Assembly: GCA_019694955.1 (NCBI GenBank)
Contig: JAIBAX010000004.1
Span: 70,001 to 134,000, forward strand
DNA from: Chitinophagales bacterium
GTDB taxonomy: Bacteria; Bacteroidota; Bacteroidia; Chitinophagales; JADIYW01
Direction of reading: 5' to 3'
Length of the DNA stretch: 64,000 nucleotides
Under the pieces are notes generated by a model, which was not told the DNA's origin, did no database searches, and worked only from the letters and a program-made list of their open reading frames with translations. Position 1 is the stretch's first letter. Every line of letters begins with the position of its first letter. The translations under genes and the position numbers were made by a program. Of this stretch, positions 37,834 to 41,890 are shown in pieces.

Positions 37834-37906
37834 GGTGCGGTAGCTCAGTCGGTAGAGCAATGGACTGAAAATCCATGTGTCGGCGGTTCGATCCCGCCCC
37901 ACACCA
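37834..37906 (+). tRNA. tRNA-Phe (anticodon GAA)
   Basis: The anticodon stem GGACT...(A)ATCC closes a loop CTGAAAA with GAA. The D-arm GCTC/GAGC and T-arm GGCGG-TTCGATC-CCGCC are intact. The acceptor stem GGTGCGG/CCACACC pairs except for a C5-A68 mismatch. CCA is not encoded. Everything from the anticodon arm onward is repeated 406 bases downstream. Confidence 0.93.
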
Positions 37907-38106
37907 CAAAAAGGTCTCCAAATCTGGAGGCCTTTTTTTATGGAATGCCTTATTTCGTTTATATCATTTTCTCTAAAAAAATAAACCGATTTTACATTGG
38001 CGAGACGGTTGATGTTGAAGAGCGTTTAATGCAACATAATACAGCCTTTTTTAGGGGTGCTTCAACCAGCAAAGCGGATGATTGGGAATTTAGAATTCAA
38101 ATTTCA
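37856..38106 (+). repeat. Tandem repeat unit 1: tRNA-Phe 3' part, terminator and nuclease 5' half
   Basis: From AGCAATGG in the tRNA D/anticodon region to the codons around residue 54 of the GIY-YIG protein, about 251 bases are repeated at 38262-38542 with few changes. The unit spans an RNA gene, its terminator and part of a protein gene, so the duplication ignores gene boundaries. Confidence 0.9.
37913..37939 (+). terminator. tRNA-Phe terminator
   Basis: GGTCTCCA-AATC-TGGAGGCC (with G-T pairing) is followed by seven T residues. The start codon of the GIY-YIG gene lies only six bases after the T-run. Confidence 0.85.
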
Positions 38107-38274
38107 TTAGCGAATCGTCAGGAGGCAAGGCAGGTAGAGCGATATATAAAAGACATGAAGTCAAGAAAAATGATTGAGAGATTAATTCACGACGTTGCGT
38201 ATCAAGATTATTTCAAAGATGCGATATTACAGAAAAAAGGAATAAAAATCTTAGCAATTCAAGCAATGGGCTGA
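37945..38274 (+). CDS. GIY-YIG nuclease family protein
   Basis: The 109-residue protein starts at ATG 37945 (MPYFVYIIF); the open frame upstream is tRNA and terminator sequence. The domain has VYI (GIY) and FYIG (YIG) motifs ten residues apart, the arginine of EERLMQHN, and the late helix EARQVERYIKDMKSR with the metal-binding glutamate. It is like the small YhbQ/UvrC-N single-domain nucleases. The last residues (AIQAMG) and the TGA stop lie in the duplicated tRNA fragment: TGA is part of the copied anticodon arm. The only visible promoter is that of tRNA-Phe upstream of a terminator, so expression would need read-through. The DNA or RNA target is unknown. Confidence 0.87.
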   Translation: MPYFVYIIFSKKINRFYIGETVDVEERLMQHNTAFFRGASTSKADDWEFRIQISLANRQEARQVERYIKDMKSRKMIERLIHDVAYQDYFKDAILQKKGIKILAIQAMG

Positions 38275-38344
38275 AAATCCATGTGTCGGCGTTCCGAATG
38301 CATTCGTTCCGAATGCATTCGGAACGATCCCGCCCCACACCACA
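38262..38344 (+). pseudogene. tRNA-Phe 3' fragment with disrupted T-arm
   Basis: The fragment begins at AGCAATGG, retains the anticodon arm (GGCTGAAAATCC, one change from GGACTGAAAATCC) and the 3' acceptor strand CCACACCA, but has no 5' half. The T-loop is replaced by two copies of GTTCCGAATGCATTC plus GGAAC. It cannot form a tRNA. Confidence 0.88.
38291..38325. repeat. Palindromic insertion in the tRNA fragment
   Basis: Two direct copies of GTTCCGAATGCATTC (38291-38305 and 38306-38320) end with GGAAC. The second copy plus GGAAC makes the perfect 20-bp palindrome GTTCCGAATGCATTCGGAAC (38306-38325). Each copy also holds the inner palindrome CGAATGCATTCG. Confidence 0.92.
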
Positions 38345-38348
38345 AAAA

Positions 38349-38375
38349 GGTCTCCAAATCTGGAGACCTTTTTTT
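38349..38375 (+). terminator. Duplicated terminator
   Basis: GGTCTCCA-AATC-TGGAGACC is a perfect stem followed by seven T residues. It is the copy of the tRNA-Phe terminator, with the earlier G-T pair restored to a Watson-Crick pair. Confidence 0.8.
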
Positions 38376-38380
38376 ATAGT

Positions 38381-38560
38381 ATGCCTTATTTCGTTTATAT
38401 CATCTTCTCTAAAAAAATAAACCGATTTTACATTGGTGAGACGGTTGATGTTGAAGAGCGTTTAATGCAACATAATACAGCCTTTTTTAAGGGTGCTTCA
38501 ACCACCAAGGCTGATGATTGGGAACTTAAAATTCAAATCTCACAAGATTATAATTTATGA
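38381..38560 (+). pseudogene. Truncated GIY-YIG nuclease copy
   Basis: The 59-codon frame starts MPYFVYIIFSKK and is nearly identical to the first 53 residues of the upstream protein. It then ends with a short unrelated tail (SQDYNL). The GIY and YIG motifs remain, but the late helix with the metal-binding glutamate is lost, so nuclease activity is unlikely. Confidence 0.8.
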
Positions 38561-38752
38561 CACTCAACAAAAGTTCTAGTATTTTCGGCAATCCATCCAT
38601 TAGTTATGAGAAAAAATAAAACAAATTTGTAACGCATTGCAACACAATCTGTTGCATTATACATTTATCAATAAAAACCTTAAAAATCCCAGCATAATTT
38701 CTTTTCTATTACGTACTTCATTTATTATTTTCATTGTTTGAATAATAGAATC

Positions 38753-41700
38753 ATGAAGAACTTAATTATTGTTTGTTTAAGTATGTGGATGATTTCCACC
38801 TCCTTACAACCCCCATCATCTGTTTCTGATAATCTTTCAAAAGGAAAATATGCGCTCTATAATGCAAACTATGATTCAGCTATTTATTACTTCAAAACTT
38901 GTGTGAACAATGCTGACAGGACAACTGAAGTAAAATTACTCTTGCTGCAAACATACTTGGTGAAAAATGATTTCGCAACCGCAAAAACGTTACAAAATAC
39001 GATTGTTCTAAAAACGAAAAACGACTCCGCCAAATATTTCAGGTTATGTGGTGTATTGGCATTTGAACAATCGGATTTGAATAAGGCTACATCCACATTT
39101 GCAAGTGCATATGCGATCAACACCACATGGAGTGATGAAAAATGTGCTTTGTTGAATGATTGGGGAAATGTATATCTGGAAAGCAACCAATTTGAAAAAG
39201 CACAAGAATTATATTCTATTGCATATAAAAAGCTGAGGCAGATTCCAAAAACTTATGCCACTCAATATGTGCTTATCCGAACATTGATCAATCTCGGGAA
39301 TATCTATTATTATAAGTCTGCATTAGACTCCGCCAATATGTATTATACAGAAGCCGCCAAGCATGCCAGACACTACTTTGGCAGTAAACACTACCTATAT
39401 GGTCTCGCCTATTCCAATATTGGGTTGGTACAGGAAGTTCGTGGGTATTATGATGACGCCTTAATTAGTTATGGGATAAGCAGAAAGATATACCAAAACA
39501 TCTTTGGCGAAAATCATAAAAATATGGCCGAATTGTATTGCTCTATTGGTAATGTGTTTCTACTTAAAAAAGAATATGATCTTGCTAGAATATACTTTAA
39601 TAAAGAATTGAACTTAAAAACATCATTGTTTGGAGAAAAACATCATAATAACGTTATCGTTTTTAAGAACTTAGGGTGTCTTGAAGCTGAGTTAGGAAAT
39701 TATAATGGATCTTTAATTTACTTAAAAAAAGCATTCCAATTAAATTATCACAATTTTGGGAAATGGCACTCAGAAACAGCGGAATCATTGTTAGAGCTTT
39801 CCAAATTCTTTCTTAAAACCAAACAATATGATTCTTGTATTATTTATGCTCAACAATGTAAAGAAATTAGTCAACAAATTGACGGCGAAATCTCTGAATC
39901 AATTGGCGTTGCAGATATTGCCATATCCGAAGCACTTTTTTGGCAACATAAATTTAAGGAATCTTCCATTTCCGCAAAAAATGCTCATGTTGTGTTGAAG
40001 CAAGTTTTTCAAACGGAACAACATCCATTAGCAATTGAGGCAGCCATATGGATAGCAGAAAACGAACTTGCATCCGGCAATTTAAATGAAGGTTTAAAAT
40101 GGTGTCAAAATGCCCTTAAAAATAATAATGTTGATATAAACAACCTCTCTCATTCCATTAAAAATCAAACCTATCTGTTCGAATTAGAATTACTAAAAAC
40201 ACTTTCTCTTTATGGTCAGGTTTTATACAATATCGCTCAAAACAGCACAGATAAAAAGTTGTTTTATTTTAAGCGGACATATTTGGTATGTGACCAATCC
40301 CTTCAGGTCTCCAAACATGTACTGAACACTATTTATTCCGGAGAAGGAAAATTCAACCTGCTGGATATTCAATCAAATATTTGTGCAACAGGAATCAGTG
40401 TAAGTTATGCGTTGTCACTTATTACACGGGATGAACATTATACATCGTCTATATTGCATTTTATAGAGAGCAACAAAGCGAATTTGATGAAACTCGAGTC
40501 TGAAAAATTAGATCATTATCATCTGGCCAAAGTAGATCCAAAGTTGATAAGGAAAGAAAAAAAACTTCAATCAGATATCAATTATTATAAGAATGAAAAA
40601 TTGCTTTACTGGGAGGCGAAAAAAGATGACGCTGAGATACAGCGTATCCAAGAGAGAATTTTTCAGCTAGAAAATGAATACCAATCACTAGCAAAAGATA
40701 TTCAAAGAAAATATCCCGCCTATTATGCACTCAAATTTCATCAAAATGAATGGAATATAAGTGAAATTCAACAACAACTTTCCAAAGACAAGGTCATTCT
40801 TGAATATGCTGTTTTTGATAGCATTTTATGCTGTTTATTCATCAGCAAAGAAAAAACAGAAACCTTTCTTATTGAAGAGGATTTTGAAGAAGACATCCGT
40901 CTTTTAACCGAGGCAAGAATACACAACTTAGATACAGCCTTCTATCATCTTTCAAGATCCTTATTCACACAATTATTTTCGCCTACTTTGCAACAAATGA
41001 TTAAAAATAAAACACTGGTAATCATCCCTGAATCTTATTTAAACAAACTGCCGTTCGAACTATTGATTCAAGACCAACTCCATCCAACTGAACCCAATAA
41101 TTGGAACTACCTCATTCGGACAAACCCCATCATATACAATACGTCAATCTATTTTTTATTAAAAAAATATGCATACAAAATGGGCAGCGGTATTGCATTA
41201 GTATCTATTCCACAAAAAAAAGAAGATTTGCCGTATGCAATAAAGGAAGTTCAGGAAATCAGTAAATTATTTGATGAACAAGACTGCTTGGTAACTTCAG
41301 AAGAACAATTGTTTAAAAAGAAGAGTACAAATTACGCTTGTTTACATTTTGCTACACATGCCTTTCTAAATGACACCATCCCCAACTATTCTTATCTTGT
41401 TTTGGACTCAAATAATAATGAAGATGGGAGATTATATACGCATGAAATATACGGACTAAATTTGCATGCCAGATTAGTAAGTTTGAGTGCGTGTGAAACA
41501 GGACTGGGAAAAAATATTGCCGGAGAAGGGAATTTAAGTTTAGCACGAGCCTTTACCTATGCAGGATGCCCGAATATTATCTCATCAACATGGAAATTGC
41601 CGGATGCTGCTTCATACAAAATCATGACTGCCTTTTACAGAAATCTCACTAAGGGTATGACTAAAGAAAAAGCCCTTCAATCAGCGAAAGTATCCTTTAT

Positions 41701-41890
41701 TGATAGCCATATGCGATTTGAAGAAGCACCGGTATATTGGGCTGGGTTGAGGTTGCAAGGAAATCAAGAACCACTTTGCTTCGGGCAAGATAGACATTAT
41801 AAATTTTGGCTACTTGGGATACTATTAAGTGCATTCATCTTTATTGGATATTTTCAGTTAAAGACCAAAAATCTACCAAAACCCTTATAA
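38753..41890 (+). CDS. TPR-CHAT caspase-like protein
   Basis: The frame opens at a TTG (38738), but ATG 38753 gives a proper signal peptide or membrane anchor (MKNLIIVCLSMWMISTSLQ); length 1045 residues. Residues of about 30-450 hold eight or more TPRs (for example YGLAYSNIGLVQEVRGYYDDALISY), and a coiled coil lies near 590-650. The C-terminal CHAT domain (about 680-1000) keeps the caspase-type dyad, His869 in LHFATHAFLN and Cys914 in LSACETGLG, plus the downstream AGCPNIISSTWKL and YWAGLRL. A final hydrophobic helix (about 1017-1037) anchors it. It would therefore be an envelope protease facing the periplasm. No gasdermin or effector gene is adjacent. Confidence 0.88.
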   Translation: MKNLIIVCLSMWMISTSLQPPSSVSDNLSKGKYALYNANYDSAIYYFKTCVNNADRTTEVKLLLLQTYLVKNDFATAKTLQNTIVLKTKNDSAKYFRLCGVLAFEQSDLNKATSTFASAYAINTTWSDEKCALLNDWGNVYLESNQFEKAQELYSIAYKKLRQIPKTYATQYVLIRTLINLGNIYYYKSALDSANMYYTEAAKHARHYFGSKHYLYGLAYSNIGLVQEVRGYYDDALISYGISRKIYQNIFGENHKNMAELYCSIGNVFLLKKEYDLARIYFNKELNLKTSLFGEKHHNNVIVFKNLGCLEAELGNYNGSLIYLKKAFQLNYHNFGKWHSETAESLLELSKFFLKTKQYDSCIIYAQQCKEISQQIDGEISESIGVADIAISEALFWQHKFKESSISAKNAHVVLKQVFQTEQHPLAIEAAIWIAENELASGNLNEGLKWCQNALKNNNVDINNLSHSIKNQTYLFELELLKTLSLYGQVLYNIAQNSTDKKLFYFKRTYLVCDQSLQVSKHVLNTIYSGEGKFNLLDIQSNICATGISVSYALSLITRDEHYTSSILHFIESNKANLMKLESEKLDHYHLAKVDPKLIRKEKKLQSDINYYKNEKLLYWEAKKDDAEIQRIQERIFQLENEYQSLAKDIQRKYPAYYALKFHQNEWNISEIQQQLSKDKVILEYAVFDSILCCLFISKEKTETFLIEEDFEEDIRLLTEARIHNLDTAFYHLSRSLFTQLFSPTLQQMIKNKTLVIIPESYLNKLPFELLIQDQLHPTEPNNWNYLIRTNPIIYNTSIYFLLKKYAYKMGSGIALVSIPQKKEDLPYAIKEVQEISKLFDEQDCLVTSEEQLFKKKSTNYACLHFATHAFLNDTIPNYSYLVLDSNNNEDGRLYTHEIYGLNLHARLVSLSACETGLGKNIAGEGNLSLARAFTYAGCPNIISSTWKLPDAASYKIMTAFYRNLTKGMTKEKALQSAKVSFIDSHMRFEEAPVYWAGLRLQGNQEPLCFGQDRHYKFWLLGILLSAFIFIGYFQLKTKNLPKPL

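Follow-up and report, generated by a model that had tools for sequence, protein, structure and literature searches.

A small GIY-YIG nuclease cassette at tRNA genes of Bacteroidota that looks like an undescribed selfish element

A tandem array of tRNA-Phe sequence, terminator and small GIY-YIG nuclease gene was analysed in the window (the whole stretch of DNA under study, 64,000 nt from a Chitinophagales bacterium) and was found to belong to a family of tRNA-linked cassettes that recurs across the Bacteroidota. On balance, this family is probably a minimal selfish cassette living on tRNA genes, in which a free-standing, homing-type GIY-YIG nuclease gene amplifies in tandem. The reading is based on the architecture of the cassette, its recurrence, its presence or absence at given sites, the arrays that it forms, the selection acting on the nuclease and the palindromes linked to nuclease lineage.

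The array at tRNA-Phe

The array sits within a 162-kb contig and comprises the following features (window coordinates):

37834-37907, + strand: intact tRNA-Phe (GAA), presumed functional (ARAGORN; Rfam tRNA, 69.8 bits)
37908-37939, + strand: terminator of tRNA-Phe, a hairpin with T-run (sequence; inverted repeat I1/I17)
37945-38274, + strand: small GIY-YIG nuclease gene, 109 aa (ORF; Pfam PF01541, E=3.5e-12)
38262-38343, + strand: defective tRNA-Phe copy, 5'-truncated, running from the anticodon arm to the 3' end (repeats D1/D3)
38290-38326, no strand assigned: palindromic hairpin in the T-loop of the defective tRNA-Phe (inverted repeat I7, direct repeat D9)
38344-38376, + strand: second copy of the terminator (repeat analysis, sequence)
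38381-38560, + strand: second nuclease copy, C-terminally truncated, 59 aa (ORF; repeat D1, 94%; translation)

The repeat of tRNA-Phe, terminator and nuclease described in the first-pass annotation is real: the copies are identical at 209 of 223 bases, plus a 30-bp insertion, and they lie 406 bp apart over the initial 36 bases but 436 bp apart over the following 223, because the second tRNA copy carries this insert in its T-loop. The divergence of the copies, together with the insert, marks an aged duplication and no assembly duplicate, so that the assembly error named in the same annotation as a possible refutation is excluded (94% identity with an insert; arrays are also found in a closed genome). 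What that annotation overlooked was the palindrome, and likewise the class of loci that have the intact tRNA downstream of the nuclease.

All catalytic residues are present in the alignment of the 109-aa nuclease, and its reading frame stops within the defective tRNA-Phe copy, for which neither ARAGORN nor Rfam gave a tRNA call. The T-loop insert of this copy forms a hairpin with 17-bp arms around a perfect 18-bp palindrome (38307-38324, TTCCGAATGCATTCGGAA). A pattern search of the window genome allowing 0-1 mismatches found no further copy of this palindrome; it is therefore not a dispersed repeat there, and a dispersed REP was ruled out for this genome. The second nuclease copy covers the first 55 or so codons, after which the frame is lost, and retains the Y, YIG, Arg and His motifs but not the catalytic Glu. 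Immediately following the array is a large ORF of 1050 aa (38738-41890), by eye a putative TPR-repeat protein that ends in a CHAT-type protease domain.

A further array of the window genome was found at tRNA-Val, where a second contig runs through tRNA-Val, nuclease, altered tRNA-Val and an identical nuclease to the contig end, and the end of a third contig continues with the nuclease C-terminus, altered tRNA-Val, terminator and a decayed nuclease remnant. In the altered tRNA-Val, TCCCGAT...ATCGGGA stands in place of the anticodon stem. The contig ends of the window genome at L123 and L002 lie in this array; such arrays thus break assemblies, and copy number is underestimated. In a closed (single-contig) genome of 3.67 Mb, two arrays of three units each (periods of 323 and 317 bp) each precede an intact tRNA (Ser, Pro), and another contig carries about eight 364-bp units with a 92% match.

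Linkage of the nuclease to tRNA genes

Small GIY-YIG genes were collected by domain alone from 60 genomes of the same order, the window genome included, which yielded 95 matches listed. A tRNA on the same strand ended 14-67 nt before the domain in 33 of these 95 and lay just downstream, again on the same strand, in 15; a close tRNA on the opposite strand was found in none of the 95 matches listed, and no tRNA of any kind was found within the fetched stretch at 20 UvrC control loci. By a rough estimate (about 45 tRNAs per 3 Mb), chance would place a tRNA beside about 0.1 of the 95. The linked isotypes number more than ten and include Phe, Val, Met, Lys, Glu, Asp, Asn, Pro, Leu, Arg, Ser and Ala, with Gly linked via fragments. 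The protein tree separates two clades of small GIY-YIG proteins, one of which has a tRNA link in 60 of its 63 members, with tRNA fragments at contig ends included (a few of these assigned by eye), whereas the other (clade A) is linked in none of 31. The small tRNA-linked nuclease module proposed in the first-pass annotation is strongly supported, and in one clade the arrangement that it suggested looking for, a GIY-YIG gene 3' of a tRNA with a partial tRNA at its far end, proved to be standard.

Named genomes were scanned independently, with protein alone as the query, and each of the best 80 loci lay at a tRNA (53 intact, 27 fragments); in 48 of the 52 upstream-tRNA loci among these 80, the tRNA recurred in another copy beyond the nuclease. 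Nearly all of the best 80 loci are titled Bacteroidota, with one Melioribacteraceae MAG in addition. The query was a narrow alignment of Val-, Met- and Lys-linked proteins, and the isotype proportions among the best 80 loci are therefore biased, towards tRNA-Val. Between them, the two independent samples (the 60-genome set and the best 80 loci) rule out chance adjacency. A match at E<=1e-12 is present in 68 of 148 well-assembled Bacteroidota genomes.

Isotypes are strongly clustered on the nuclease tree (27 label changes vs 57.9 when shuffled), so a nuclease lineage keeps to its tRNA isotype. Lineage and isotype are still partly confounded in the clustering tests, and vertical inheritance could account for part of the pattern, given that the tRNA-Asn locus is syntenic across two families.

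Broken tRNA copies and palindromes

Two arrangements were observed, namely intact tRNA, terminator, nuclease and tRNA 3' part, or tRNA 5' part, nuclease and intact tRNA; in both, the nuclease is flanked by an intact tRNA on one side and a broken copy on the other. The unit measures about 320-440 bp and the nuclease is its only ORF. Most extra tRNA copies lack half of the tRNA or have the anticodon arm replaced. Of the broken 3' copies, 61 of 70 contain a palindrome foreign to the intact tRNA; it usually occupies the anticodon arm and in the remaining cases the T or D arm, the window copy being a T-loop case. A TCCCGA...TCGGGA core is frequent in broken copies across isotypes, and TCCCG-type palindromes number 8-47 per genome. 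Palindromes were found near tRNA-clade nucleases at 30 of 62 loci, against a shuffled mean of 1.0, and near the gene in controls at 1 of 31 (clade A) and 1 of 15 (UvrC).

The palindrome type was common to the nearest relative in another genome at a frequency of 0.68 vs 0.47 when shuffled (maximum 0.57 in 300 shuffles), a test that does not separate lineage from isotype. Lineage palindromes include CCTGC/CCTGT in Arg lineages, TCTCG in Asp, TCCGCC in Met and TCACGC in Pro. At orthologous tRNA-Val loci of two congeners (L082 and L083), an extra palindrome, GTCCCGATAATTATCGGGAGTGC, is present within the broken tRNA of one (L083). Arrays of palindrome-bearing tRNA 5' parts were also seen, without a nuclease and upstream of an intact tRNA, at L059 (1507-1890), L025 (891-1342), L077 (1672-1843) and L296 (971-1200; all in nuclease reading direction), with a period of about 96-110 bp where regular.

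Presence and absence at syntenic tRNA genes

In many genomes of the order a kinase gene adjoins tRNA-Asn, and this locus is syntenic across two families. It is occupied by a nuclease and broken tRNA in G004, G015, G036 and G060, and by a nuclease of different type in G051. The cassette is missing from it in many genomes, including the G004 congeners G008, G010, G011 and G012 and the G051 congener G020. In G048, a congener of G015, G036 and G060, there is no nuclease and an upstream palindrome-bearing fragment is retained, which is a footprint of cassette loss. The tRNA-Lys locus is occupied in G036 and empty in G048 and G015; between G036 and G048 the flanks are homologous on both sides and the net difference is about 336 bp. 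Syntenic genomes without the nuclease gene, the comparison proposed in the first-pass annotation, thus do exist at both tRNAs; independent gain fits this distribution best, with repeated loss as a less likely origin.

The terminators of tRNA-Asn vary between genomes and gave no answer on which tRNA copy is original, and the tRNA-Lys body differs at a few positions between occupied and empty sites. Two tRNA-Asn body types occur within one genus (L150-L155, L145, L149), and the type of occupied loci is also present at some empty ones, possibly as a scar of lost cassettes. These differences raised the possibility that the intact tRNA is recoded at occupied sites, but G010-G012 carry the occupied-type tRNA-Asn without a nuclease.

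The nuclease

Nucleases of the tRNA clade are 80-110 aa long. The aligned proteins show no variation at the GIY, YIG, Arg, His and Glu positions, and dN/dS is 0.04-0.23 in measurable pairs, indicative of purifying selection; together these argue, at the level of sequence, that the nuclease is maintained as a presumably active enzyme. Domain matches are of GIY-YIG type only, with none to the Y1 HUH tyrosine transposases, and no extra DNA-binding domain for site specificity is recognisable in the protein. The ORF stands alone, outside any intron or intein, and tRNA was the sole RNA family above its Rfam gathering score at the locus, with no group I intron among the matches. As in free-standing homing endonucleases, a catalytic domain is thus combined with the lack of an intron or intein and with presence or absence at a conserved site. 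A match to PHROG homing endonucleases was weak for the window protein (E=0.0016) and lacking for two other nucleases, and a search for a phage or plasmid carrier gave no match. The UPF0213 or YhbQ-type small GIY-YIG proteins (PDB ID: 1zg2) share the single-domain fold family and are of similar length, but their similarity to the nuclease is weak (E=2.6e-05).

Discussion

In the homing-cassette reading favoured here, the GIY-YIG nuclease would cut a tRNA gene of its isotype, or the DNA close to it, and recombinational repair with the tRNA sequence as homology would place a copy of the nuclease gene next to the tRNA. The insertion would be tolerated because one tRNA remains functional; the other would be left broken, mostly with a short palindrome that matches the nuclease lineage and may provide a site for the nuclease or mask one. 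Through the flanking tRNA repeats, the unit could then expand into tandem arrays, shrink again and decay; at tRNA-Phe of the window, one unit would have been duplicated and the second nuclease copy would then have died. We infer, as did the first-pass annotation, that cuts made near the tRNA may help the nuclease to spread, and part of the spread of the cassette may be vertical. Counted against this reading are the negative search for a phage or plasmid carrier, the lack of a recognisable additional DNA-binding domain, the possible vertical share in isotype fidelity, the single-copy state of the window palindrome, the partial confounding of lineage with isotype and that it offers no account of why the intact tRNA escapes cutting.

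The first-pass annotation knew of no such system; phage SegB is a close functional precedent. This GIY-YIG enzyme is implicated in cutting tRNA-containing sequence, and its action leads to tandem repeats of tRNA and C-terminally truncated segB (PMC13096335). The window layout, a tRNA piece and a C-terminally truncated nuclease in tandem, is what a SegB-like process would leave behind and therefore favours a homing-type cassette. SegB and the free-standing Seg enzymes of T-even phages resemble the window family in being GIY-YIG nucleases outside introns and beside tRNA genes. SegB is phage-borne and reported to be without isotype preference, whereas the Bacteroidota family is chromosomal, of 80-110 aa and isotype-faithful by lineage, and its nuclease, unlike SegB, is flanked by defective, palindrome-bearing tRNA copies. 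The best reading is that this palindrome-bearing tRNA component is what is new relative to SegB.

GTAG REPs are served by RAYT transposases, which are Y1 HUH transposases, and the RAYT/REP system (REPtron) is like the cassette in that a nuclease-type gene is flanked by short palindromes tracking the enzyme lineage. Unlike RAYT/REP, the cassette has a GIY-YIG enzyme, and its palindromes lie inside tRNA copies and are mostly not dispersed in high copy number. An alternative modelled on REPs, which we consider unlikely, would make the palindrome the mobile unit and the GIY-YIG protein its processing nuclease, with tRNA hairpins as favoured landing sites for which spare copies alone are suitable. 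That palindrome type tracks nuclease lineage, that one TCCCGA...TCGGGA core serves several isotypes and that one of two orthologous tRNA-Val loci carries an extra palindrome would all agree with it, but the window palindrome occurs once in its genome, the TCCCG-type palindromes are few per genome, and GIY-YIG enzymes are not known to act as transposases. Some clade-A genes do lie amid repeated palindromes, yet the clade overall has little nearby palindrome excess. The statement that CGTC REPs have no dedicated transposase (PMC3733652) would leave room for such an enzyme. Clade-A genes amid repeated palindromes, such as ATTCCCTTGTAAAAGGGAAT and ATTCCCGCCTTCGCGGGAATGACG, were seen at L024, L052, L065, L057, L062, L086 and L090; these two are CGTC-type REPs, reportedly without a mobiliser. 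ATTCCC-N8-GGGAAT reaches up to 58 copies per genome, with 0 for the reversed control there.

Passive tandem duplication, in which tRNA loci recombine often, a host nuclease gene hitchhikes and the spare copies decay and gain palindromes neutrally, is improbable. Arrays and decaying copies do exist, and tRNA repeats alone make recombination possible, but one clade lies at many tRNA genes phylum-wide while its sister lies at none, the gene is present or absent at fixed syntenic sites, and the palindromes far exceed shuffles and track lineage.

Very little weight is given to a tRNA-quality or defence device, in which the nuclease would target tRNA or invaders and the extra tRNA would be a decoy, antidote or dosage reserve. 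The strict isotype link would suit it, as would the phage SegB arrays, which boost tRNA dosage against tRNA-cutting defence (PMC13096335). Against this, most extra copies are half-missing or anticodon-replaced and hence unable to raise tRNA dosage, close relatives are often without the cassette, and known defence systems give only weak matches, to the shared catalytic motif.

A remnant of an integrase-type element using the tRNA as attachment site is scarcely credible: the partial 3' tRNA copies look att-like, as in tRNA-targeting integrative elements with their partial tRNA 3' end copy at the far side, but the cassette is far smaller and has neither integrase nor cargo, its break positions vary, and partial copies are of both 5' and 3' type, the 5'-half copies with a nuclease upstream of the tRNA being unlike att sites. 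Between the tRNA copies of the window and of the two closed-genome arrays, the nuclease ORF was found alone, with no site-specific recombinase, and an integrase element is ruled out for the sampled loci.

The literature search covered openly available papers, and novelty is therefore provisional: it found no description of tRNA-linked GIY-YIG cassettes in bacterial chromosomes, and none of the papers listed joined GIY-YIG with repetitive extragenic palindromes. A term search of the 2006 GIY-YIG family survey gave no mention of palindromes or Bacteroidetes, and 'tRNA' occurred there in unrelated uses only. The tRNA-linked cassette looks like an undescribed selfish element. More tentatively, and with some doubt on our part, it could be a new selfish system that combines a nuclease with a lineage-matched palindrome in a duplicated, defective tRNA, is thereby able to enter essential tRNA genes yet always leaves one working copy, and has radiated over most isotypes phylum-wide, and that may be the GIY-YIG counterpart of RAYT/REP.

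If the reading as a selfish cassette is right, the chromosomes of a major bacterial phylum contain a very small mobile element that had escaped notice, one that would account for many of the tRNA fragments and contig breaks in Bacteroidota genomes. It would provide a chromosomal relative, in function, for the phage SegB mechanism and a candidate enzyme type for CGTC REPs, palindromic repeats without a known mobiliser, and it would illustrate a way for selfish genes to live in essential ones.
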